A DNA stretch of 43,773 nt from a virus. Positions 16,400 through 34,990 of the stretch are shown one piece after another. Where the stretch lies: IMG/VR virus record IMGVR_UViG_3300043409_001031, positions 1 to 43,773 of that record; one strand, given 5' to 3'. Within the stretch, counting starts at the first letter, position 1. Every line of letters starts with the position of its first letter. Below the pieces are notes generated by a model that saw only the letters and a list, made by a program, of their open reading frames with translations, ran no database searches and was not told where the DNA came from. The position numbers and the translations under genes are program-made.

Positions 16400-16836
16400 A
16401 CGTACTTCTCCTTTGGCGTCCGCTTGATGAGCGGGAACTCGGTGTTCGGGCAGCCTTTGCGCACCCAATCCTTGAACGGCGGCGTTTCCTTGAAGTGCAT
16501 CTTCTGCGCCTCGGTAAGCCGGTCGAATGCCCAGCGCTCGGCATCGCTCAACTTGTCGCGATCCACCATGATGCGGGTAACTTCCTCCACGGGCATGTTC
16601 CTTTTGGTTCGCAGGAACGCCTCAAATCTCAGGCGCTCACTGGCGGGTATATATTTGAGTTGTGATACGACTGTTGCAGGGTCGGCCTTGCGGCGAACCG
16701 CCAGCTCGATCTCGTTGCGAACAAGGGCTTCGTAGCCAGCCTGTATGAGCAGGTTGGTCGGTATTTCGATATCATCCATGTCAGGCATTTCAACATCGAA
16801 ACCGTGCGACCTGAAGCAGTAGATGCAACCACTCAC
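16396..16836 (-). CDS. Hypothetical protein, GTG start
   Basis: The likely start is the GTG at 16836, which follows GGGAGGGGCGGTC and overlaps the endolysin stop as GTGA; this gives 146 residues. The protein opens with a CIYC pair, then is helical and charged (for example RLRFEAFLRTKRNMPVEEV and DAERWAFDRLTEAQKMHF) and ends basic. It follows the endolysin gene directly, but no membrane segment or signal peptide supports a holin or spanin role. Function unknown. Confidence 0.65.
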   Translation of the reverse strand: MSGCIYCFRSHGFDVEMPDMDDIEIPTNLLIQAGYEALVRNEIELAVRRKADPATVVSQLKYIPASERLRFEAFLRTKRNMPVEEVTRIMVDRDKLSDAERWAFDRLTEAQKMHFKETPPFKDWVRKGCPNTEFPLIKRTPKEKYV

Positions 16837-20536: not shown

Positions 20537-20750
20537 CAAGATTATTTATCTGCTCCACCGCCCATAACGCCGCCCGTTTGCGGCCAGCCCATGCCGTGCT
20601 GTCGTCGCCCTTGATACAAACGCCTTTTAAGGCACCTGTGACAGCCGCCACGGCCTTTTGCGGGTCCGCCCCGCCTAGACCCGCGTAGGCGAGTACCTGG
20701 CCCTTATGGAGCACGCAGATGCAGTTACGGGCGGTGAGGTGTGCGGTCAT
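20514..20750 (-). CDS. Hypothetical 78-residue protein
   Basis: The product starts MTAHLTARNCICVLHKGQVL and has a beta hairpin followed by helices (DPQKAVAAVTGALKGVCIKG, then KRAALWAVEQINNLVDKANQ). The start overlaps the HNH gene stop (ATGA), so both are read together from the HNH promoter. The 3' end contains the next leftward promoter. The family is not recognised. Confidence 0.6.
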   Translation of the reverse strand: MTAHLTARNCICVLHKGQVLAYAGLGGADPQKAVAAVTGALKGVCIKGDDSTAWAGRKRAALWAVEQINNLVDKANQA

Positions 20751-21292
20751 GATGCGCTGCTTTTTTGTGCGTGCATGGCTATCACCTTGGGCCTTTTCTC
20801 GACATATGGCGCAAATCCCTTTTGTTGTCGAGCCATAGCTCTAGTGCTGCTCCTTCTTGCGGTAGCACGGGCCACATCGGCGTCGTAACAGGTTTTACAC
20901 CTTCGATGTCCACACGGGCGAATGTATGTGTTTTCAGGGGTGAATTCATGTCCACGCTTACAATGCGTTTCGCTTGACCTGTTGCGCTTTCCTTTCTTGC
21001 TCATTCGACCCTTCTGTACCGCATCGGCCATATTGTCCGAGTGAGTTCCAAGCCAAAGATGATGCGGGTTTACGCAATTAGGGTTGTCGCATGTATGGCA
21101 TATACACAAATCCGGTGGCGGTGGTGTTCCGTGGTATATCCAATAAGAAATACGGTATACATACATATAGCTACCGAAAACACTAATCCTGCCTCTGTTT
21201 TGACTTACGACACAGCCGGTCCAAGGCCAGCACTCGTCCCTGCCTAAAACCTTTACCTTAGACCACATCCTGTGTTCCAGTGAGTTTGACAT
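20747..21292 (-). CDS. HNH homing endonuclease-like protein
   Basis: The 181-residue protein starts at 21292 with GGAGGCGCAT before ATG. Residues about 8-60 (HRMWSKVKVLGRDECWPWTG, then YRISYWIYHG) are the usual HNH-3 type lead-in. The core is ICHTCDNPNCVNPHHLWLGT with SDNMAD after it (His66, His77/78, Asn87). A second Cys/His cluster at about 111-135 (HCKRGHEF and CGHRRCKTC) is likely a zinc-binding DNA-recognition tail. It nicks or cuts DNA, probably as a selfish free-standing nuclease. It has its own promoter and a structured leader. No split gene is evident on either side. Confidence 0.9.
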   Translation of the reverse strand: MSNSLEHRMWSKVKVLGRDECWPWTGCVVSQNRGRISVFGSYMYVYRISYWIYHGTPPPPDLCICHTCDNPNCVNPHHLWLGTHSDNMADAVQKGRMSKKGKRNRSSETHCKRGHEFTPENTYIRPCGHRRCKTCYDADVARATARRSSTRAMARQQKGFAPYVEKRPKVIAMHAQKSSAS

Positions 21293-21310: not shown

Positions 21311-21406
21311 CGCCCCGGAATGCGCTTGCAACAGCTTGCCGTAAAGGCGTGCATTCCGGGGCGAGGTTGGCATATTTCAAGATCCTATACGGCTAGTAGC
21401 TGTTGC
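21311..21406 (-). promoter_or_regulatory. Structured leader RNA of the HNH gene, pseudoknot-capable
   Basis: Bases 21311-21323 and 21351-21363 form a perfect 13-bp stem. The loop of that stem includes 21328-21336 (GCAACAGCT), which is the exact reverse complement of 21398-21406, the predicted 5' end of the transcript. Together they could make a loop-to-5'-end pseudoknot. The hairpin is followed by TCTATTTT and then the ribosome site of the HNH gene, so it could attenuate transcription or hide the start. Confidence 0.6.
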
Positions 21407-21412
21407 GTTGTA

Positions 21413-21441
21413 ATACTAACACGTTTGTCGGTGGATGTCAA
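21413..21441 (-). promoter_or_regulatory. Leftward promoter of the HNH gene
   Basis: Read leftward: TTGACA (21441-21436), 17-base spacer, TAGTAT (21418-21413). The -35 hexamer contains the TGA stop of the gene at 21438-21617. The expected start point near 21406 coincides with the first base of the GCAACAGCT element that can pair with the leader hairpin loop. Confidence 0.6.
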
Positions 21442-25386: not shown

Positions 25387-25874
25387 GGCAAGCCCTGATT
25401 CCGCTTCTTCTCCCGCTCTGCCTTAGTGCGCCCGTCGTGCTGCATCTTGATGCCCATGTGCTTTCGCTCACGGAACGCCACCATGACGCTGCAACCAACC
25501 AGCTTCGCCATAGCCTTGTCGGACATCGTGCCCATAAGGGCGTAATGCTCCTCGGTAAACTTCGTCTTGCGGCTATCAGGGGCTGTAGGGACGCCGTGGT
25601 CCCTGCGGTACTTCAGCACCGTGTGGTAGCTACACCCTGCCTGTAGGCCCACCTGCTTGTCACTGGCAGTACCGGCAAGGCGCGCGATAGTCTCGTGGAC
25701 CTCGGGCGGTAGCTGCGGCTTGCCCCGCTTTCGCAAGTCCTCACCAATAGGGATGTTGCGCGCATAACGTACCTGCCTCACACGCTCCCGACTGCACCCG
25801 GCGAGCTTGGCGATTGCACTGTCGCCGGTATTACCCAGCAAGTGCATGTATGGATCGAGCTTTGATTTTGCCAT
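25380..25874 (-). CDS. Regulator with three tandem HTH repeats, leaderless
   Basis: The 164-residue protein contains three copies of a helix-turn-helix unit of about 45 residues. Each has a pattern like sD-x-x-iAklaGcS-x-x-V-x-x-R-x-x-GIP: DSAIAKLAGCSRERVRQVRY, SDKQVGLQAGCSYHTVLKYR and SDKAMAKLVGCSVMVAFRER. Multiple HTH units suggest binding to extended or repeated sites. The ATG lies only five bases from the -10 box of a perfect promoter, so the message should be leaderless or nearly so, as lambda cI is from PRM. It is the likely master regulator of the region. Confidence 0.75.
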   Translation of the reverse strand: MAKSKLDPYMHLLGNTGDSAIAKLAGCSRERVRQVRYARNIPIGEDLRKRGKPQLPPEVHETIARLAGTASDKQVGLQAGCSYHTVLKYRRDHGVPTAPDSRKTKFTEEHYALMGTMSDKAMAKLVGCSVMVAFRERKHMGIKMQHDGRTKAEREKKRNQGLPC

Positions 25875-25889: not shown

Positions 25890-25909
25890 GGATTGGCGTA
25901 TCGTGTCAA
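25880..25909 (-). promoter_or_regulatory. Perfect-consensus leftward promoter for the triple-HTH gene
   Basis: Leftward TTGACA (25909-25904), 18-base spacer, TATAAT (25885-25880): both hexamers match consensus exactly. The ATG at 25874 lies five bases beyond the -10 box, at the expected transcription start. Confidence 0.85.
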
Positions 25910-25929: not shown

Positions 25930-26067
25930 ATGTTGAAACCCGCCCGCCGCGTCGTCGGTACCTTCTGGTTCCAGTTCGCCAACCAGATGGCCGCACAGCA
26001 CTTCACGAAAATTATGTGGTTCCTCAGCCTCTTGGCCGCTGGGGTGCTGGGCTGGGTGATGGGATAA
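25930..26067 (+). CDS. 45-residue membrane protein
   Basis: The ATG at 25930 follows AAAAGGAGCAGCGTT. The product begins MLKPARRVVGTFWFQFANQM and ends in a membrane helix (IMWFLSLLAAGVLGWVMG). The basic N-terminus before a C-terminal anchor suggests the soluble part faces the cytoplasm. It stands alone between the regulator and the replication promoter. Role unknown; host-membrane or superinfection effects are possible. Confidence 0.6.
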   Translation: MLKPARRVVGTFWFQFANQMAAQHFTKIMWFLSLLAAGVLGWVMG

Positions 26068-26075
26068 GAAAGTGC

Positions 26076-26104
26076 TTGACAGGATAGAAAGTTTGTGGTA
26101 AGAT
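26076..26104 (+). promoter_or_regulatory. Main rightward early promoter
   Basis: Perfect TTGACA (26076-26081), 17-base spacer and TAAGAT (26099-26104) preceded by TGG (extended -10), very like the main leftward promoter. The start point should lie near 26111, at the first base of the structured leader. Confidence 0.75.
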
Positions 26105-26109
26105 CTGGT

Positions 26110-26157
26110 TGTCGAGGCGGTAATGGCTGGGAGGCCGGTAGCCGCAAATACTCGACA
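26110..26157 (+). ncRNA. Structured 5' leader of the replication operon
   Basis: TGTCGAG (26110-26116) pairs with CTCGACA (26151-26157). Inside it, GCGG/CCGC and GGCT/AGCC can pair further. The element starts at the predicted transcript 5' end, and a strong terminator-like hairpin follows. This arrangement recalls cis-acting antitermination RNAs such as HK022 put, or a riboswitch-type sensor, but I see no sequence match to a named class. Confidence 0.5.
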
Positions 26158-26168
26158 GAAGGCAAGCT

Positions 26169-26276
26169 ATGATACCCTCTAAACCGAAACCCGCCGTGAG
26201 CTATTGCGTTAAGTCCTTCGCGCAACCCAGCTTCTCCCCTCGGCGGGTTTCTTCTTTTTGGAGGTATGATGGCTGA
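26169..26276 (+). CDS. Possible 35-residue leader peptide
   Basis: A frame starts with ATG at 26169, a few bases after AAGG, and reads through the whole attenuator hairpin. It stops at 26276, eleven bases into the replication gene. It begins MIPSKPKPAVSYCVKSFAQP. Translation would melt the hairpin and could couple attenuation to ribosome movement. It may also be fortuitous. Confidence 0.35.
   Translation: MIPSKPKPAVSYCVKSFAQPSFSPRRVSSFWRYDG
26186..26259 (+). terminator. Attenuator-like terminator before the replication genes
   Basis: GAAACCCGCCG (26186-26196) pairs perfectly with CGGCGGGTTTC (26241-26251), and the loop folds further (TTGCG/CGCAA, AGCT/AGCT). TTCTTTTT follows immediately. 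It lies between the rightward promoter and the first gene, whose GGAGGT ribosome site begins at the end of the T-run. Confidence 0.75.
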
Positions 26277-27126
26277 CTCACACCGCGAGGACGCTAGACC
26301 GTCCTTTCAGTTCTACCCAAAGGACTGGCTGTCCGACACCGAGCTACGGATGTGCAGTCTTGCCACCCGTGGACTCTGGATAGACCTGCTCTGTATCATG
26401 TGGAACGCGCCCGTCCGAGGCACACTCATGTTCTCACCTGATGGAATTTGCCATAGCAAACTGGATGGCAAACGCTTGGCAAGGACTTTAGGTTGCCATG
26501 AGGATGCTATAGCTGAGGCCACCGCAGAACTCCTTGAATGTGGTGTTGCGAGCCTTGACGAGGAAGGTTTTCTTTACTCTCGCCGCATGAAGCGAGAGCA
26601 CGGCCTTTCCGAAATACGCTCTAAAGCAGGTAAGGCGGGGGCAGAAAAGCGCTGGAATGCCAATGAAAATGGCAAACAGGATTTTGCTATGGCAAAACCG
26701 ATGGCAAAACATGGCCCTCCTTCTTCTCTTGCTTCTTCTTCTCCTACTGCAATTAAAGATCAAGATAGCTCCGAGCCGCCTTCCGGCGACTCAAAGCCGC
26801 CAGCCGGTGTTCCTGTATGGCACCCGACCGAGGCACAGAAGTTCCTAACTCATCCAGGGCCGTACGAGGTAGATGACGCCGACATCGCTACATGGCTACC
26901 GGCTGTCGCCTGTAACGACGAGCGAGGATGGCCCCTGACACGACTTCACCTCAAAAGCCTACTCGATGCCTACCAACCGGCCTTGAGCGCCGTGGCGGCT
27001 GCCACAGAGGTCAAGAAAGCGAAGGCGTGGCTGGAGAACAACCCGTCCAACCGCAAGACGCCGTTGGGTATGCCCAAGTTCCTGAACAACTGGCTGTCGA
27101 AGGCCGTGAATGGCGGTAAGCGATGA
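26266..27126 (+). CDS. Phage replication initiator / helicase-loader-like protein
   Basis: The 286-residue protein starts at either of two adjacent ATGs after TTTGGAGGT. The N-terminal domain, SFQFYPKDWLSDTELRMCSL followed by ATRGLWIDLL, is the winged-helix type found in phage replication proteins next to DnaB. A disordered Ser/Pro-rich linker (about residues 150-185) leads to a C-terminal helical part ending KTPLGMPKFLNNWLSKAVNG. Such proteins bind the origin or recruit the helicase. The next gene is dnaB, overlapping by four bases. Role by homologous layout and context. Confidence 0.75.
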   Translation: MMADSHREDARPSFQFYPKDWLSDTELRMCSLATRGLWIDLLCIMWNAPVRGTLMFSPDGICHSKLDGKRLARTLGCHEDAIAEATAELLECGVASLDEEGFLYSRRMKREHGLSEIRSKAGKAGAEKRWNANENGKQDFAMAKPMAKHGPPSSLASSSPTAIKDQDSSEPPSGDSKPPAGVPVWHPTEAQKFLTHPGPYEVDDADIATWLPAVACNDERGWPLTRLHLKSLLDAYQPALSAVAAATEVKKAKAWLENNPSNRKTPLGMPKFLNNWLSKAVNGGKR

Positions 27127-28511
27127 ACACACTATCCGACACCATTGCCGAGCAGTCCGTGCTTGGCGCTATGCTGCTCAATGAGCAATGCCACGCCGAG
27201 GTGTTGGCGATCCTCGGGCAGTCCCCTACGGTATTCCACGACGCCCCTAACGCCGCCATCTATGGCCGCATGCTTGACATGGTAGGGTTGGGTCGGGCTA
27301 TCGACCCCTCCGCTCTCTTGTCCCATACCATCCACACTGGATGGCTTGACAGGTGCGGCGGCGCGTCCTACATGGCCTCGCTGGCGTCAGTGACCCCGAC
27401 CAGCGCCAACGCCGAGCAGTACGCCCGTACCGTCAGGAGGATGTACGAGTTACGGGAAATCGCCACCACGGCACAGCGACTACAGGAATCCGTAGCTAAG
27501 CCGGGCGCAGACCCTGCTGACATCCTTTCCGCGCTCAACAAGGACGCGGTACGGATTTGTGGCATCCGTGAGGACGAGGGGCTTGTGTGTGTCGCTGACG
27601 ACCTCGAAGCGGCGGTGTCGGACATTGTGAACCTTTACGAGTCCGGGACGACTGGCGGGCTTCTGACGGGTATCCACGGGCTTGACAACATCCTGAACGG
27701 ACTGGAAGATGGTAACCTCATCATCCTTGCCGCCCGGCCCGGCATTGGCAAGAGCGCCATCGGCCTAAACATCGCGGCCAACGTGGCGGAAACCGGCAAG
27801 AAGGTTTTATTCTTCACACTGGAAATGCAGCGCAAGGAAAACCTGCACCGACTGCTGTACATGAAGGGTGCTATCAGCAAACGCAAGGTGCTGGGTAAAT
27901 TCATCTCGAAACCTGACCTAGCAGGTAAGCTATCGAAAGCTGCCCAGTCAAACTGCATGAACAACCTGTGGGTGGACGGGTCGTCCCGCAACACCCCACT
28001 ACAGATTCGCGCCAAGTGCATGCGCGCTGCGGCCCGTGGCCCTGTGTCGCTAATCGTAGTAGACTACCTACAGATCGTATCGCCGTCCGACAGCCGCGCA
28101 CCCCGAGAGGTACAGGTGGCCGAGATTAGCCGGTCACTAAAAATCCTTGCTGGCGAAATGAACTGCCCGGTGATTGCGATGGCCCAGTTGAACCGTGACG
28201 CACCCAAGAGCGAGCGCCCCGGCCTGCACCACCTTCGCGAGTCCGGCTCCATCGAGCAGGATGCCAACGTGGTGGCTATGCTGTGGGCGGGCGAGCAGTC
28301 GGTTGTCCATGTGTCGGTGGAGAAGAACCGCAACGGGCCTACGGGTGAGTTCGCTGTGGTGTTCGATAAGGAAACGCAATCGTTCAGAGAGTACGCGGGC
28401 GGATATACCGCACCGAAGAAGCAGAGCGGTATCGACGCAGCAATGGCGGCGCTGGCACCGGCAAGCGAAAACACCTACGAAGAGGAGGACGATGAATGGG
28501 ATCGATTCTAA
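27123..28511 (+). CDS. dnaB: Replicative DNA helicase DnaB
   Basis: The 462-residue protein has the N-terminal helical DnaB domain (QSVLGAMLLNEQCHAEVLAI) and the RecA-like ATPase domain, with Walker A ARPGIGKS at residues 204-211, the catalytic Glu in FFTLEMQ (Glu233) and Walker B in SLIVVDYLQIV. GSIEQDANVVAMLW is the usual C-terminal helicase motif. It is a full-length hexameric 5'-3' helicase for the phage fork. The phage has no visible polymerase or primase, so it must hijack the host's. The last 45 residues are variable and acidic. Confidence 0.95.
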   Translation: MNTLSDTIAEQSVLGAMLLNEQCHAEVLAILGQSPTVFHDAPNAAIYGRMLDMVGLGRAIDPSALLSHTIHTGWLDRCGGASYMASLASVTPTSANAEQYARTVRRMYELREIATTAQRLQESVAKPGADPADILSALNKDAVRICGIREDEGLVCVADDLEAAVSDIVNLYESGTTGGLLTGIHGLDNILNGLEDGNLIILAARPGIGKSAIGLNIAANVAETGKKVLFFTLEMQRKENLHRLLYMKGAISKRKVLGKFISKPDLAGKLSKAAQSNCMNNLWVDGSSRNTPLQIRAKCMRAAARGPVSLIVVDYLQIVSPSDSRAPREVQVAEISRSLKILAGEMNCPVIAMAQLNRDAPKSERPGLHHLRESGSIEQDANVVAMLWAGEQSVVHVSVEKNRNGPTGEFAVVFDKETQSFREYAGGYTAPKKQSGIDAAMAALAPASENTYEEEDDEWDRF

Positions 28512-28738
28512 CGGCGAGTGATTTACTGGAGTTCAAACTCGATGGACTACCCGACATCCGTGACGACCTCGACAGCGGCAACATGGTCGTGAGTGCAGCC
28601 AAGGTGAAGCGCCTGCTGTCCGCGTTCGATTACGTGGAGCAACTCCATCGCAGCGACCCGCCCGCTACCGTCTACACACAAATCACGCCCGGATCGGCGG
28701 TCTACCGCAAGGCACACGGAGCTAACGACAATGGCTGA
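28496..28738 (+). CDS. Hypothetical 80-residue protein
   Basis: The start at 28496 lies after GAAGAGGAGGACG inside the end of the helicase gene. The product begins MGSILTASDLLEFKLDGLPD and has a helical middle (AAKVKRLLSAFDYVEQLHRS). It is cotranslated with dnaB and may be a replication accessory protein. No family is recognised. Confidence 0.65.
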   Translation: MGSILTASDLLEFKLDGLPDIRDDLDSGNMVVSAAKVKRLLSAFDYVEQLHRSDPPATVYTQITPGSAVYRKAHGANDNG

Positions 28739-28940
28739 GTCACATAAGCGCTGCGAGCGCTGCCAGAAGAACCTTGCATGGTTCCAGATACTTGAGTCGG
28801 TACTGGAAGGCGAAAGCGACAATGACCCGTATGTCACCCTGTGCTGCGACTGCCTAACGCCGAACGAGAAGGCCGCTATCGACCGTGGTCGCGTACTGTA
28901 TCAAGAAGCACAGGTGGCGCTGACAGGAGAATTGGTATGA
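28731..28940 (+). CDS. Small zinc-ribbon protein
   Basis: The 69-residue product contains KRCERCQKNLAWFQILESVL and later TLCCDCLTPNEK: two Cys pairs about 29 residues apart, a likely zinc ribbon. The last part is a charged helix. It overlaps the genes on both sides by a few bases. Such proteins near dnaB may bind DNA or regulate transcription; nothing more can be said. Confidence 0.65.
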   Translation: MAESHKRCERCQKNLAWFQILESVLEGESDNDPYVTLCCDCLTPNEKAAIDRGRVLYQEAQVALTGELV

Positions 28941-29245
28941 GCGCAGCCAAGCACGACACCGCCAAGCCACGCCTGTCGCTTGTGCCGCCCCACTCACTCA
29001 ATGCCGTCATAGACGTCATGGAGTACGGCGCGACAAAGTACGAAGCGCACAACTGGAAGGGCGGCATGGAATATTCCCGCTGCTTCAATAGTGCGTTCCG
29101 CCACATGTGGGCATGGTGGCGCGGCGAGTACAGCGATCCAGAGAGTGGGTTGCCGCACTTGGCGCATGCGATATGCGGCCTAATGTTTCTGTTGGACTGG
29201 CAGAAGATGGGGGTTGGAACTGACGACCGAGATAAGGTATCCTGA
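28937..29245 (+). CDS. MazZ/MazG-type dATP/dGTP diphosphohydrolase-like protein
   Basis: The 102-residue protein from the ATG at 28937 reads KHDTAKPRLSLVPPHSLNAV, then MEYGATKYEAHNWKGGMEYS, RHMWAWWRGEYSDPESGLPH and LAHAICGLMFLLDWQ. This is the pattern of the dATP/dGTP diphosphohydrolase N-terminal family (formerly DUF5664), an all-alpha NTP-PPase fold with acidic metal ligands on adjacent helices. In cyanophage S-2L a related enzyme (MazZ) helps make the 2-aminoadenine genome. Here no PurZ-like or DpoZ-like gene is visible, so a nucleotide-pool role is more likely. Confidence 0.8.
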   Translation: MSAAKHDTAKPRLSLVPPHSLNAVIDVMEYGATKYEAHNWKGGMEYSRCFNSAFRHMWAWWRGEYSDPESGLPHLAHAICGLMFLLDWQKMGVGTDDRDKVS

Positions 29246-29249
29246 TGGT

Positions 29250-29298
29250 CCCTCGTTAGGGGGCGCGTCCTGCGTTCGCTGGCTCACCCCGCTAGGGG
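29250..29298 (+). terminator. Two small hairpins before the late promoter
   Basis: CCCTCGTTAGGG (29250-29261) and CCCCGCTAGGGG (29287-29298) are short GC hairpins between the early and late blocks. The region can also fold through the G and C runs of both. No long T-run is present, so it is a weak terminator candidate. Confidence 0.35.
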
Positions 29299-29327
29299 TT
29301 GACCTATAGGTGCAACCGTGCTACCAT
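29299..29327 (+). promoter_or_regulatory. Rightward promoter of the virion block
   Basis: TTGACC (29299-29304), 17-base spacer, TACCAT (29322-29327). It lies in the only sizeable gap of the rightward half, directly before the first virion-type gene (ribosome site AAGGAGGCCAA). Confidence 0.6.
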
Positions 29328-29354
29328 GCGGTCAGTTAAACACAAGGAGGCCAA

Positions 29355-29702
29355 ATGCAATACATTTCGCAGACCGTAAACGTGAATGCTTCTGGCGCGG
29401 GTAGCTACCTAAGCCCTATCCTTAACGGGAAGCTGTGGGGTTATCAAGTTGGGCGCGGCTCCAATCGCGCAGGCAACCTTGCCATTATGGCAATGAAGCC
29501 GTCATGGGCATTCCTCGTCAAAGACCAATGGCCCCTTGACCTGTCGCCTGCCAAGCCGGTTAAGATGCCCGTTGTTGATGACACGGGCGCGGTCGTTACT
29601 GGGCAGTACGAACAGTGCTTGCTTGTGGATGACACCATCGCCGTCAATCTCGTCGGCGGAACACCCAATACCAGTTTCACTATTGAGCTTTGGATTGACT
29701 AA
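29355..29702 (+). CDS. Beta-rich hypothetical protein
   Basis: The 115-residue protein begins MQYISQTVNVNASGAGSYLS and is beta-rich throughout, ending NTSFTIELWID. Its start has an ideal ribosome site. First in the late unit, it could be a decoration or fibre-associated protein, but position alone supports this. No cysteine or catalytic motif is seen. Confidence 0.65.
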   Translation: MQYISQTVNVNASGAGSYLSPILNGKLWGYQVGRGSNRAGNLAIMAMKPSWAFLVKDQWPLDLSPAKPVKMPVVDDTGAVVTGQYEQCLLVDDTIAVNLVGGTPNTSFTIELWID

Positions 29703-29725
29703 AGGCTGAACTAGGGAGTCGCCGC

Positions 29726-29929
29726 GTGAACGCATACGAACCACTTATCTCTGCGCAAAAAGGCGCGGCAGAAGGCATTATCAGCGCTTCTGTGTTTTCT
29801 TCCATTGGCACCCTTGCGGGTATGCCATTGGACCAGTCAGCCGCCCTAGGGGTGGTTGGTGGTGCCATCATCGGTATTGTGAAGGCGTTCAGGAACCGTC
29901 GCAAGCAGCGCAGAAAGCGCGGGCTGTAG
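29726..29929 (+). CDS. Holin candidate, GTG start
   Basis: The 67-residue protein starts at GTG 29726 after TAGGGAGTCGCCGC. It has two hydrophobic segments rich in Gly, Ala and Ile (GIISASVFSSIGTLAG and SAALGVVGGAIIGIVKAF) and a strongly basic tail (RNRRKQRRKRGL). This is the size and topology of class II holins, which open the inner membrane to release the endolysin. The endolysin itself lies on the other strand at 16833. A phage membrane protein of another kind remains possible. Confidence 0.65.
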   Translation: MNAYEPLISAQKGAAEGIISASVFSSIGTLAGMPLDQSAALGVVGGAIIGIVKAFRNRRKQRRKRGL

Positions 29930-29930
29930 G

Positions 29931-30182
29931 ATGGGTGGCCCAACATTTACGCTCGACATAGGCACGCTCGCGGTACTACTACTGAACACGGTGGGTCTTG
30001 CTGGTGCGTACTACAGCCTCACTACGGCAATTTCTCTTGTCAAGTCGGCTATAGCAGCCATCCACAACGATCTTGTCGAGATCAAGAAGAACGCACAGGA
30101 CCGAGGGAAGCAGCTAGATCGAGTCGATAAGGCTGTGGCTATTCTCAGCGATAGAAGTGACCACGAACTCAAGGCTGGATAG
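29931..30182 (+). CDS. Membrane-anchored coiled-coil protein
   Basis: The 83-residue product has one N-terminal membrane helix (LAVLLLNTVGLAGAYYSL) followed by a charged helix with heptad character (HNDLVEIKKNAQDRGKQLDR). It lies directly after the holin candidate. One helix plus coiled coil fits an inner-membrane spanin subunit, but it is short for that and no lipoprotein partner is seen. It may be a second holin-related protein. Confidence 0.6.
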   Translation: MGGPTFTLDIGTLAVLLLNTVGLAGAYYSLTTAISLVKSAIAAIHNDLVEIKKNAQDRGKQLDRVDKAVAILSDRSDHELKAG

Positions 30183-30184
30183 CC

Positions 30185-30625
30185 ATGCCATTCTTCCGTA
30201 ACTTCATATCAGGTACCCCGACGCTGGTCGCTGGACTGAGCGCAGGTACGGCCACAGTGGACTTTGGCGCATTCCCCGGCAAGAGCGACGCATCGGTGGT
30301 GGTGACTGGACAGACTGGAATACTTGCAACTTCTAGGGTGACTGCGTGTATAGTAGCTACGGCGACGGACGACCATAGCGCCGATGAGCACTGGGTAGAG
30401 TCGATTCAGGTAACGCCGGGCAGCATCGTTCCGGGTGAAGGATTCACAATTTACGCACGCAACACGAGCGAGATTAGCGAACCCGGCCCATTCAGAATGG
30501 ACCAATACTCACAGGTTGCCGCAGCGGGCAAGGGCGGTTCAGGTGTTACATCCTTCAGGCCGACACACGAACCCAAGGGCACACGGCTCTACGGGAAATT
30601 CACAGTCCACTGGCAGTGGGTTTAG
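30185..30625 (+). CDS. Beta-rich conserved phage virion-type protein
   Basis: The 146-residue protein contains TGQTGILATSRVTACIVATA followed by TDDHSADEHWVESIQ and GEGFTIYAR. This arrangement (alternating strands, A-T-x-D-H-S-x-D-E-H) recurs in uncharacterised proteins of the late regions of many phages. Beta-rich content and gene position suggest a small fibre or decoration protein. Overlap-free start after the preceding stop. Confidence 0.65.
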   Translation: MPFFRNFISGTPTLVAGLSAGTATVDFGAFPGKSDASVVVTGQTGILATSRVTACIVATATDDHSADEHWVESIQVTPGSIVPGEGFTIYARNTSEISEPGPFRMDQYSQVAAAGKGGSGVTSFRPTHEPKGTRLYGKFTVHWQWV

Positions 30626-30634
30626 GAGCAGTAA

Positions 30635-31282
30635 ATGGCGGTTCAAGTTCAAGGCAACTCAGGTACGGTAGCAGAGGTAGACACAACCTCTCGCGCCCTT
30701 CGCGTCAGTCCGCGCACTGTGGATGTGGGATCTCTCGGCTCATATCGCATATCGCACTTGTCTGGCACGATGGCTGCGGGCCTTGCGGGTAACTCCGAGA
30801 TCCTTCAGTTCCGCTGGTCCGACGCAACCCGCCTGTGTGTCGTTCACTCCGTGACGCTGGATGGGCTTAGCGGGTCCGCCACGGCGTTTGCGGCAGGGTT
30901 CGGCAAGGTGGATATGCTTATCGCTAGAAGTTGGACTGTGGACGGTAGCGGTGGCACAGCCGCCACAATCACGACGAACAACGGCAAGATGCGCACATCG
31001 CATGGCACCACGCTGCTTGGCGCTGTCCGTGGCGCATCCACCACCAACCTTACTGTCGGAACCAAGACGCTGGACGCACAGGCGGTGGGTCAGATTTCGC
31101 TGTCGTTCGGCACAGCAGCCAGCGTACAGTACGCGAACATCATCTCGCTTTTCGACGACAACAACAAGCACCCCATAATCCTCGCACAAAACGAAGGCTT
31201 CGTCCTGCGCGCAACCGTACCCGCCACTGGAACGTGGCAGTTTGGTGCGACTGTTACGTGGTCCGAGGTTGCGGCGTACTAA
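30635..31282 (+). CDS. Beta-rich virion protein, possibly fibre-associated
   Basis: The 215-residue protein is beta-rich. It includes AGLAGNSEILQFRWSDATRL near its middle and ends HPIILAQNEGFVLRATVPAT followed by GTWQFGATVTW. This set of features is common in phage structural proteins of unknown place that occur close to fibre genes. No enzymatic motif is present. It is probably a component of the tail fibre or head surface. Confidence 0.65.
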   Translation: MAVQVQGNSGTVAEVDTTSRALRVSPRTVDVGSLGSYRISHLSGTMAAGLAGNSEILQFRWSDATRLCVVHSVTLDGLSGSATAFAAGFGKVDMLIARSWTVDGSGGTAATITTNNGKMRTSHGTTLLGAVRGASTTNLTVGTKTLDAQAVGQISLSFGTAASVQYANIISLFDDNNKHPIILAQNEGFVLRATVPATGTWQFGATVTWSEVAAY

Positions 31283-31297
31283 ACAGGAGCACGAATC

Positions 31298-31633
31298 ATG
31301 GCAAACTCAGACACGAACACCGAGGGGTTGGTACCGGGCGGTGCAGTAGCAGTCCATACGGCAACCCTTACGGCACAGAACACCTTTACCACGCCCGCAA
31401 TCCTGCACGGCGACAACAACCTTGTTATTAGCGGCACGCTTGCCGCGTCAACGGTTGTAGCTCAGCGCAGCTTTGACGGAGGCACCACATGGATTGATGT
31501 GCCCGGCATGTCGTTCACGGCGGCAGAGCAGGGCATCATCAGCGAAGTCGAACCCAACGTATATTGGCGAGTTGGAATCAAGACGGGTGGCTACGGCGGC
31601 TCCGATTCGGTTGATATCCGAATCAGTAAGTAA
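31298..31633 (+). CDS. Small beta-sandwich virion-type protein
   Basis: The 111-residue protein begins MANSDTNTEGLVPGGAVAVH and shows alternating strands with SFDGGTTWIDVPGMSF, a pattern of beta-sandwich modules carried by phage surface proteins. Ribosome site AACAGGAGCACGAATC. Decoration or fibre part by context. Confidence 0.6.
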   Translation: MANSDTNTEGLVPGGAVAVHTATLTAQNTFTTPAILHGDNNLVISGTLAASTVVAQRSFDGGTTWIDVPGMSFTAAEQGIISEVEPNVYWRVGIKTGGYGGSDSVDIRISK

Positions 31634-31643
31634 GGGGGCAACC

Positions 31644-32444
31644 ATGAGCGTATACAGAAAACTCTACACGAGTAGCCGAAATAGCGGCGGTGGTACCCTG
31701 TCCGAGCCGCTTGAGCTTGAGCAGACAGCCACCTCAAAGGTTGGCTTTCAGGCGGGTGTTGACTCCGAGAACGGCACAAAACAGGCGCTTGGCGGCGCGT
31801 TTGAGGCGTTCGCGCAGAGCGCCGATGGTAGCGACCGTGGTTCATCTGTGTTTCAAAAACTACAGAACGCTGTTGGCGACGCCTTCAAGGCATACCATCG
31901 CACAGCCGCTCTGTTGCGGACGACCTACTTCGACACGCCTGACCCCGGCAACTCGCAGGCGTACATGGCGTTTGGCAAGATGCTCGGCACCATCACGGGG
32001 CCATACACCTTCAACGGCAATACGGGTGGCGCTACCGCCGAGACGACCATTCTGACAGGTACCTTGCCGGCCAACACGGCAGCGCCGGGGCACAAGGTGG
32101 AGATTGCTGGATCTATAAACCTAGCCACCGTCAACGGCGCGGACACGCTTACGATCAAGGTTAAGCGCGGCGCTACCACACTCGCGACTGCTGCGGTTGT
32201 GGCTGGCGACGTTGGGCCTGTCGGTATTACCTTGAGTGACCTCTTTCAGTCTATTGGCGCAAGCGGAAACGCTTACAATCAGACCGGAATTGCAGGCAGC
32301 GCCACAAGCGATTCCGCATCTGGCTCCTTCTCCTTCGATACCACCACATCCAAGGCGTACACCGTCACGGCCCAGTGGTCTAGTAGCAATGCTGGCAATA
32401 CCGCCGTGTTCAGCTTCCTACACATCAACTACAAGCTGGCGTAG
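31644..32444 (+). CDS. Tail fibre or spike-like virion protein
   Basis: The start is the ATG at 31644 after AAGGGGGCAACC; the longer frame from 31473 covers the previous gene. The 266-residue protein is low in charge and rich in Gly, Ala, Ser and Thr, with a C-terminal beta-rich half (TLTIKVKRGATTLATAAVVA, then SGSFSFDTTTSKAYTVTAQW). It lies just before the terminase genes and could bind the host receptor or join the virion surface. No collagen-like, protease or depolymerase motif is seen. Confidence 0.55.
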   Translation: MSVYRKLYTSSRNSGGGTLSEPLELEQTATSKVGFQAGVDSENGTKQALGGAFEAFAQSADGSDRGSSVFQKLQNAVGDAFKAYHRTAALLRTTYFDTPDPGNSQAYMAFGKMLGTITGPYTFNGNTGGATAETTILTGTLPANTAAPGHKVEIAGSINLATVNGADTLTIKVKRGATTLATAAVVAGDVGPVGITLSDLFQSIGASGNAYNQTGIAGSATSDSASGSFSFDTTTSKAYTVTAQWSSSNAGNTAVFSFLHINYKLA

Positions 32445-32459
32445 GCCGCAAGGAATCCA

Positions 32460-32963
32460 ATGCTTCACTGGCGCGAGTACGAGTTTTGTAAGCGTATTGC
32501 ATCTGGCGAGGACCAGATTGATGCCATGAAGGCCGCGTTCGTAATCTCTAAGAAAGAGTCACGGGAGCGGTTGTCAGGGCTTATGTCTCGGGCAGACGTA
32601 CAGGCCATGCTCGATTTCCTTACGGGCGAGATGGGTAAGTACGACGACGACGCCACGCGCCTTGTGCGGTTGCGCCAGTCCGCATATGACCTTGCATGCA
32701 ACGAGGAACTGAAGCCGTCTGAGCGCGCATCCATGATGAAGGAATTCTCTCGGCTAACCAACGAGATTAAGAAGCAGCAGTCACGCGATGAGGAGGCCAA
32801 CGAGAACGTTGACGCCCTTATCCGCGACCTAAAAGGTGCCAAGCGTGCCATAGAAAGTAAGGAGACTACCGATGAAGAAAGCGACCAAGACGACGAAGAA
32901 GAGCGGCAAAGGGAAGGGGAAGGGGTGCTAGGGGAATCCCTGCTAGACTCCATGTTCAAATGA
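32460..32963 (+). CDS. Terminase small subunit
   Basis: The 167-residue protein sits directly before, and overlaps, the large terminase gene. The N-terminal half is helical with an HTH-like part (EYEFCKRIASGEDQIDAMKA, then SRADVQAMLDFLTGEMGKY). The rest is a long charged helix ending in a very acidic tail and a short GESLLDSMFK end. This is the usual plan of TerS: DNA binding, oligomerisation and a tail that contacts TerL. Assignment rests on plan and location. Confidence 0.75.
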   Translation: MLHWREYEFCKRIASGEDQIDAMKAAFVISKKESRERLSGLMSRADVQAMLDFLTGEMGKYDDDATRLVRLRQSAYDLACNEELKPSERASMMKEFSRLTNEIKKQQSRDEEANENVDALIRDLKGAKRAIESKETTDEESDQDDEEERQREGEGVLGESLLDSMFK

Positions 32964-34990
32964 ACGAGCGACAGAAGCGGGCATATGAGTTCGTTGAGTC
33001 CTTTGAGGCGCTGAGTAAGGCAGACTTCCAGCGCCTTCCTTTACGTCGTCGCGACAAGATGATCGACGAGTACCTTACACAGAAGTGCATTACCGACTTC
33101 TGGACGTTCCTGCGCTACGTCTACCGCGATGCCATCCAGCACTACTGGCCCGCCCTCCACGGGCCTGCTGGCCTGTCTGGCTACCTCCAGAACTGGGATA
33201 AGCTAGACAGGCACGGGAGTCGTGTGTCGGTCGGCGTTAAGTTCATTGTGGTGTCCCGTGAATACTGTAAGACGCAGACCGGCATCGCATGGGATGTCTG
33301 GCAATGGGTGAACGACCCTAACAAGCGCGGCCTTGTGCGTGCCTACAACGACGAGAAGGCGGGCGAGATAGCCCGTACCTGCCGTAACATGATCGGCAAG
33401 GAATGGTTCCAGCGCCGGTTCCCGTGGGTGAAGCCCGCACTCGACAAGGGCAAGCCGGTCCTATGGAAGAACAACCAGTTCCTGCTCCAGCGTGAGGACA
33501 TGCTACGCACCCCGTCAATGGAAGCGTGCGGCATGAAAACCGACCCTACCGGCGGTCACTTTGACTTCGGTCACGCCGACGACTTTGAGGTCCGCGAGAA
33601 CACCAGCTACTTCGCAGACCGTGAGCGCATGGTCAAAACATGGCGTTCGGACGGCAACCTGTTCGTCGCTGGCTCCCGGCGCATCATGTGCGGTACGCCG
33701 TGGCACTCCTATGGCCTCATCAACGCGGTGTCGCAGCGACTCAACATCGAGGACATACCAGAGGGTGGCGACTTCCGCAACCATGAGTACGACCTATTCT
33801 GGCAACCGTGCTGCATTCCGCAGGAGTGGGCACCTATCGACATTCCAGAGCCGAAGCTGTATGACGACCGCAAGACTTTGCGTATTACCGGCGTTGAGCT
33901 ACCGACCGACATACAAACCTGCCAAGCCAAGCTGACGTTCATTGACCCTATAGTCCACGATACCACCGTGGAGATTCGTGAGATTGTCCACAACGACCCA
34001 TACACCCTGCGACTCAACCGCCCGATACCGGCGTACCTCGGTCAACCCCTCCACCTGTTCATAGGCAACGAGAAGCCTGCCGCGCCCAACCGTGTGACGC
34101 TGGATGTTACAGACTTGACACCTACCATTACCCATGAGAAGCCTAAGGTGCTTGCGGGGTACGACATATCGCGGTCGTCACTCCCAAAGAAGGAGCGGGA
34201 CCAAGGGCCAATTATGTTCTCAGGGCAGATGAAGCTGAAGCCCATGTCTGCCGACTCGCTCATATTTAACGCAGACGACATTGAGCGCATCGACCTCAGC
34301 GAATTGCCAGATGGCCTAGATTACCGCGCCTGTGACTTTGCGACAGCCAGCAAGACAGCCGCCAGTAGCGTCATAAGCTATGGCCGCTGGACCAATCGAG
34401 ACTTCGTTATCACCAAGGTGGTACGAAAGAACAAGATGTCCAATGCGGACAAGATCCTTGAGTTGGTACTGGGCGCAAGGAAGGCAATGCGCGACGGCAA
34501 CCCGCTGCGCATGACGTTCTTTGAGAAGGCACAGATTGAGCGCACCCTGATGGACTACATTGATCAGGCGTGCCGCGACCCGCATGCCTACTTCAAGGCG
34601 CTGGGTGGCATATACGCGCGCATAGCTGACGCCGAGTTTTCGGACTCAGGCCCAATTATGTTCATGCGCCGTATCCTGCCTCGCTCGACAAGCTCCACAA
34701 AGAACATGCGTATCGCTGAGACTCAGCCGTTCGTAAAGGCTGGTTGTCTGAAGATTGTTAAGGGGTGCGAAGGCGAGGAGGCGTTCTTTGACGAGGTAGG
34801 CAGATTCACGATTGATAGCAACGACACGTTTGACACACTCGACACAATACGAGATATGGTGTCAGAAGGTAGACCTGTGGCACAATACGTTACGCAAGAA
34901 CAAAGATCGCGTGGAACCGCATCCTATGATGATGCGCAGACAAGGGCGTTCAGCAACATGAATCCGACCGGCTATCGCGGGGGTGCATAA
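32960..34990 (+). CDS. Terminase large subunit with inserted beta domain
   Basis: The 676-residue protein has a packaging ATPase domain with an unusual Walker A-like loop, SREYCKTQT (residues 99-107), a probable Walker B at FDFGHADDFE (201-210) and the coupling motif GTPWH (245-249). The nuclease domain begins near YRACDFATA with Asp459. Between them, residues about 305-370 form a beta-rich insertion (VEIREIVHNDPYTLRLNRPI) that resembles domains in the adaptor and nozzle proteins. It translocates and cuts DNA at the portal. The Lys of Walker A is kept, but the loop departs from the common form. Confidence 0.9.
   Translation: MNERQKRAYEFVESFEALSKADFQRLPLRRRDKMIDEYLTQKCITDFWTFLRYVYRDAIQHYWPALHGPAGLSGYLQNWDKLDRHGSRVSVGVKFIVVSREYCKTQTGIAWDVWQWVNDPNKRGLVRAYNDEKAGEIARTCRNMIGKEWFQRRFPWVKPALDKGKPVLWKNNQFLLQREDMLRTPSMEACGMKTDPTGGHFDFGHADDFEVRENTSYFADRERMVKTWRSDGNLFVAGSRRIMCGTPWHSYGLINAVSQRLNIEDIPEGGDFRNHEYDLFWQPCCIPQEWAPIDIPEPKLYDDRKTLRITGVELPTDIQTCQAKLTFIDPIVHDTTVEIREIVHNDPYTLRLNRPIPAYLGQPLHLFIGNEKPAAPNRVTLDVTDLTPTITHEKPKVLAGYDISRSSLPKKERDQGPIMFSGQMKLKPMSADSLIFNADDIERIDLSELPDGLDYRACDFATASKTAASSVISYGRWTNRDFVITKVVRKNKMSNADKILELVLGARKAMRDGNPLRMTFFEKAQIERTLMDYIDQACRDPHAYFKALGGIYARIADAEFSDSGPIMFMRRILPRSTSSTKNMRIAETQPFVKAGCLKIVKGCEGEEAFFDEVGRFTIDSNDTFDTLDTIRDMVSEGRPVAQYVTQEQRSRGTASYDDAQTRAFSNMNPTGYRGGA

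Follow-up and report, generated by a model that had tools for sequence, protein, structure and literature searches.

The stretch 26076–26276 of the virus genome studied here appears, on balance and judged by its sequence, to be a leader attenuator in front of the replication operon, most probably a leader terminator of a conditional or partial type and as such an element of a known kind. The window, i.e. the complete virus record of 43,773 bases that was analyzed, carries podovirus-like virion genes and host-type promoters. According to the proposed mechanism, host-type RNA polymerase would start at about position 26110, the short transcript would fold into a stable hairpin at its 5′ end, and much of this RNA, about 145 nt long, would be released at an intrinsic terminator (26186–26259) located just 5′ of the first replication gene. 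The replisome organizer and the DnaB helicase would then be expressed by read-through polymerases only, which would also transcribe across a candidate origin within the first gene. Extension of the hairpin over the Shine-Dalgarno sequence (SD) and the start codon in the read-through RNA would perhaps hold down translation, too. The same layout occurs once more in the phage, in front of an HNH endonuclease gene. The analysis established the sequences of promoter, hairpin, and tail, their improbability, their association, and the second site; from these, we infer the occurrence of termination, its regulation, and its opener.

Promoter, 5′ hairpin, and terminator hairpin of the replication leader

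Leftward genes begin at 25874 and rightward genes at 26266. The first rightward gene (26266–27126, + strand) encodes a replisome-organizer-like protein (PHROG 13246, E = 1.2e-8; 39% identity to relative L001) and is followed by a DnaB-like replicative helicase gene (27123–28511, + strand; PF03796, E = 4e-65). As start codon of the first gene, ATG 26266, which is only 1 nt from the SD, or ATG 26269 can be considered, the latter being more likely going by the SD spacing. On the opposite strand, the leftward promoter at 25909–25874 shows a perfect 12/12 sigma70 match with an 18-nt spacer, and its predicted start site coincides with the ATG at which the leftward genes begin, which suggests that the first of them has a leaderless mRNA. 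Between the divergent promoters, there is a 44-amino-acid open reading frame (25933–26067, + strand) with a good SD and a hydrophobic C-terminal half, for which no family match was obtained.

The extended −10 promoter that had been predicted at the start of the leader could be read directly from the sequence. It is of the sigma70 type (26076–26104, + strand) and consists of TTGACA (26076–26081), a 17-nt spacer, and TAAGAT within an extended −10 element (TG-G-TAAGAT, ending at 26104), corresponding to 10/12 consensus positions plus the TG. In the whole window, it is the only promoter on the + strand reaching at least 10/12; polymerase can therefore reach the replication genes only across the terminator hairpin, unless a weak promoter match downstream of it (26370–26399) is used. 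Dependence of the entire rightward genome on this one promoter was considered, but is made less likely by a further candidate promoter at 29299–29327 (+ strand; TTGACC-17-TACCAT with extended −10), which is located in the gap upstream of the gene at 29355 and from which late transcription may start. As in leader attenuators in general, a promoter lies upstream and a coding gene downstream of the hairpin, with no other strong promoter between them.

At the predicted 5′ end of the transcript, where a folded element had been proposed for 26110–26157, an imperfect hairpin is present at 26109–26158 (+ strand) with a stability of about −24 kcal/mol; an equally stable fold was obtained in only one of 2000 dinucleotide shuffles. 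Effects on mRNA stability, pausing, or an action on RNA polymerase are possible roles of this hairpin.

The terminator hairpin itself (26186–26251, + strand) is formed by 11 perfect outer base pairs, eight of them G-C, between the arms 26186–26196 and 26241–26251. The stem encloses 44 nt, which are partly self-paired in an inner hairpin. It is directly followed by the interrupted U-rich tract TTCTTTTT (26252–26259), which abuts the SD GGAGG (26260–26264). Direct reading thereby bore out the 11-bp perfect hairpin with a T-rich tail ending at the ribosome binding site of the first replication gene. Calling the attenuator "strong" was overstated, given the enclosed 44 nt and the interruption of the U-tract. 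Because of the enclosed 44 nt, a standard terminator scan misses the hairpin, and our own implementation of the d'Aubenton-Carafa score gives it a negative value (about −7 to −11), chiefly on account of the hairpin length. For these reasons, we accept a terminator-like hairpin without the attribute strong; the long enclosed loop and the interrupted U-tract may result in weak termination.

Although one formula scores it below zero, the combination of a G+C-rich stem and a U-tract is beyond chance expectation. In third-order Markov versions of the window, about 0.03 hairpins with a stem of at least 10 bp and a tail of at least six T in eight positions are expected. With a stem of at least 11 perfect pairs and at least six T in the next eight positions, none was found in 60 third-order Markov runs, compared with three in the real window. 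Furthermore, among 75 SD-preceded starts, upstream folding is most significant at 26269 (z = −5.3).

A second site in the genome and the situation in relatives

An equivalent of the replication leader, absent from the original prediction, is located at 21441–21292 on the − strand. There, a promoter (21441–21413; TTGACA-17-TAGTAT, extended −10) is followed by ATG 21373, a terminator hairpin with 13 perfect base pairs (21311–21363), TCTATTTT, GGAGG, and ATG 21292 of the HNH endonuclease gene (20747–21292; PHROG 826, E = 1e-35). At both sites, the terminator is immediately succeeded by a GGAGG SD and the start ATG of the downstream gene. The HNH start is also among the top five of the 75 SD-preceded starts with regard to upstream folding (z = −3.5). 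A third apparently structured start at 16836 was rejected, as it is located inside the endolysin coding sequence and reached only z = −1.85 on refolding.

Of the three strongest long-stem terminators of the window, two follow one of its five best promoters within 150 nt (P = 0.000175, by a test devised after the sites had been seen), and the other three of the five promoters have no such terminator. The third hairpin with at least 11 bp (10386–10352, − strand) is located past the last listed leftward gene and resembles a usual terminator at the end of an operon. The association of promoters and terminators is the best computational argument for both leaders being functional attenuators. Together with the improbability of the hairpin and the second site, it supports the predicted succession of promoter, leader, and terminator in front of the replication genes; the specific openers named along with it are not supported (see below). 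Since none of 71 checked HNH relatives has an upstream terminator, the second site is not a trait of the HNH gene family.

No close relatives were found by DNA comparison in the phage and plasmid collections searched, by the replisome protein, DnaB, portal, capsid, terminase, or the DNA pattern of the 5′ element in IMG/VR, or in genome contigs. In the phage collection, terminase, portal, and capsid have no relatives beyond about 25% identity. According to these searches in IMG/VR (pattern search; terminase, portal, capsid, and DnaB) and in the phage collection, the phage represents an orphan lineage. Only distant homologues of the replisome organizer were found, to which a family alignment added 80 more loci, and nearly all of them are without such a leader. 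A terminator-like hairpin precedes two of 79 distant loci, which is equal to background, and these two (L141 and L170) are near-identical (96.6%). The distant homologous genes are mostly located inside operons, with a median gap of −4 nt to the upstream gene. This single case is notable: in L141 (2392–2544), which belongs to another phage, and likewise in L170, an 18-bp terminator hairpin with TTTTTCTTGGAG is joined directly to the SD, and the replisome-organizer gene is overlapped by a frame of 18 codons. In both loci, this gene carries six GAAAGCAA repeats.

Candidate openers and alternative explanations

The proposed leader frame of 35 codons exists as predicted (26169–26276, + strand); it reads from ATG 26169 through the hairpin to TGA 26276 and overlaps the start of the first gene by 11 nt, while the frame at the second site (ATG 21373) is in phase with the HNH gene. 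At both sites, the upstream ATG lies 10–17 nt before the hairpin and the frame is open through it. The chance of such a frame is about 17% per site. The codon-usage score of the 26169 frame is −0.28, wrong frames scoring about −0.3 and real genes 0.186 ± 0.125; at both sites, the codon usage resembles that of wrong frames and does not look coding. Regarding translation of the first replication gene, the SD and the start codon are nearly all paired with sequence upstream of the hairpin in the predicted read-through RNA, the SD with 26172–26183. When flanks were shuffled, 17/2000 gave pairing as good with a wide flank and 607/2000 with a narrow flank; at the second site, the number was 393/2000, which is not significant. 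Masking of the SD by the extended hairpin is therefore only suggestive.

A ribosome-gated attenuator is a tentative possibility, in which a ribosome starting at ATG 26169, or at ATG 21373 at the HNH site, would cross the nascent hairpin region, block its folding, let the polymerase pass, and be handed on to the next gene at its overlapping start. The geometry of both leaders allows the ribosome movement proposed originally, and a passing ribosome would relieve the terminator and the SD pairing alike; the chance frequency of the frames, their non-coding-like codon usage, and the weak SD of the first frame (AAGG) speak against it. Bacterial leaders in which an upstream open reading frame is combined with premature termination in the 5′ leader are known from mdtU-mdtJI (PMC7815308) and from vmlR, where transcription and translation attenuation are combined (PMC9226507). 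mdtJI uses Rho (PMC7815308), whereas the phage leader has an intrinsic hairpin as stop signal and a frame whose translation is putative. We give a somewhat lower probability to an antitermination factor that the phage would encode among its leftward early genes and that, similar in function to lambda Q or Xp10 p7, would let polymerase pass both leader terminators, so that the genes behind them become delayed genes. Two promoters with a brake that is absent from the other three strong ones would fit such a factor, as would the many small leftward genes without family match. In the late gate PR′-tR′-Q of phage lambda, an intrinsic terminator less than 200 nt downstream of a strong promoter gates an operon, and the succession of promoter, short leader, and terminator in the phage leader resembles PR′-tR′. 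In contrast to lambda, the leader sits before replication genes, by inspection neither a −10-like pause element just after either start nor boxA/boxB was seen, and no antiterminator gene of the lambda Q or N type or of another known family was recognized among the non-structural proteins scanned, though a new type could escape such a scan.

It is rather unlikely that the leader is a fixed partial terminator with low constant read-through and/or a small-RNA gene, the RNA 26110–26258 itself being stable and perhaps acting in trans. Such a fixed brake would also fit, and a 5′ hairpin together with a 3′ terminator hairpin is typical of stable short RNAs, but convincing complementarity to other phage RNAs was not found, and no Rfam covariance model, including those of riboswitches and P4/P1-type antisense RNAs, matched the leader at the gathering score (best E 3.6 at a permissive setting). 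Premature termination in a leader also controls the replication operon of satellite phage P4 via the CI RNA, a likeness that does not extend to an Rfam family match or to matching complementary segments in our leader. The closest documented anatomy is that of IsrK of the Gifsy-1 prophage: in the isrK-orf45-anrP leader, a promoter gives a short RNA up to an intrinsic terminator with partial read-through, and an upstream open reading frame overlaps the start of the target gene on a locked mRNA (PMC4825925), as predicted for the read-through mRNA of the phage leader. IsrK differs in that an antirepressor instead of replication genes is controlled and in that there is no sequence or Rfam match; its action in trans on its own read-through mRNA is demonstrated (PMC4825925), while such an action of the phage leader is conjectural. 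Very improbable is a put-type element, i.e. that the hairpin 26109–26158 binds RNA polymerase so that the terminator is ignored, as in HK022, whose put RNA depends on the zinc-binding domain of the beta′ subunit of RNA polymerase. An unusually stable structure at the extreme 5′ end of the transcript resembles putL at the 5′ end of an early HK022 transcript, but putL/putR have two stem-loops within about 70 nt (PMC9378689) compared with one 50-nt stem-loop here, 26159–26185 being essentially unpaired in the leader fold. The similarity to putL/putR was at the shuffled level (score 20, shuffled mean 20.4; HK022 27000–33000, 6 kb compared at this sensitivity), and there is no counterpart at the second site. 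The proposal of a ligand-sensing fold is likewise not supported, with no Rfam match and no structure competing with the terminator, which in constrained folding had a probability of about 1 even with the 5′ hairpin forbidden; an attenuator opened by a protein or a ribosome would not need such a mutually exclusive structure. Antiterminator pairing of the 5′ element with the terminator reached only marginal values (29 and 49 of 1000 shuffles); it was lost on constrained folding. Finally, we regard it as improbable that the hairpin is an inverted repeat that arose by chance or has no regulatory role. The searches gave no evidence of conservation and one formula scores the terminator as weak, which would fit this explanation; the absence from the 60 simulated windows, the second like site, and the association with promoters speak against it.

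Concerning the opener of the attenuator, we rank leader translation first as a tentative choice, followed by antitermination at both sites through a factor of the phage or the host, then by no opener at all, the leader being a fixed partial brake or a small-RNA source, and, as an unlikely case, by a put-like or ligand-sensing RNA. With two like sites in a single genome, the opener becomes accessible to testing. A common opener of both would have to act on features shared by them, which speaks against the 5′ hairpin alone.

A candidate origin in the first gene and possible consequences for phage replication

Just downstream of the leader terminator, the first gene contains a candidate replication origin (26447–26746, + strand), composed of five ATGGCAAA copies (26447–26708) and a subsequent pyrimidine tract (26717–26746). 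The lambda O gene is a precedent for an origin inside a replication gene, and by analogy the iteron-like ATGGCAAA repeats and the pyrimidine tract are candidates for such an origin. The eight copies of ATGGCAAA in the window and the five in the gene were reached by 0/100 shuffled windows and 0/100 shuffled genes, respectively. Repeats on the protein level (MAKPMAKH, Ser-rich linker) may explain part of the ATGGCAAA repetition. If the origin is true, the attenuator would also control transcription across it.

If termination is confirmed, the leader would represent a gate that acts at the RNA level, depends on the host polymerase, and controls the replication operon of a phage whose lineage has neither close sequenced relatives nor a recognizable antiterminator. 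A more far-reaching and doubtful version is a paired, reusable "double lock", in which the terminator, joined to SD and start codon, would keep transcription as well as translation shut off until opened by a moving ribosome or by a factor of the phage. At the replication operon, this lock would also gate transcription across the origin in the first gene. Should this apply, a single RNA switch would set initiator supply and origin activation together.
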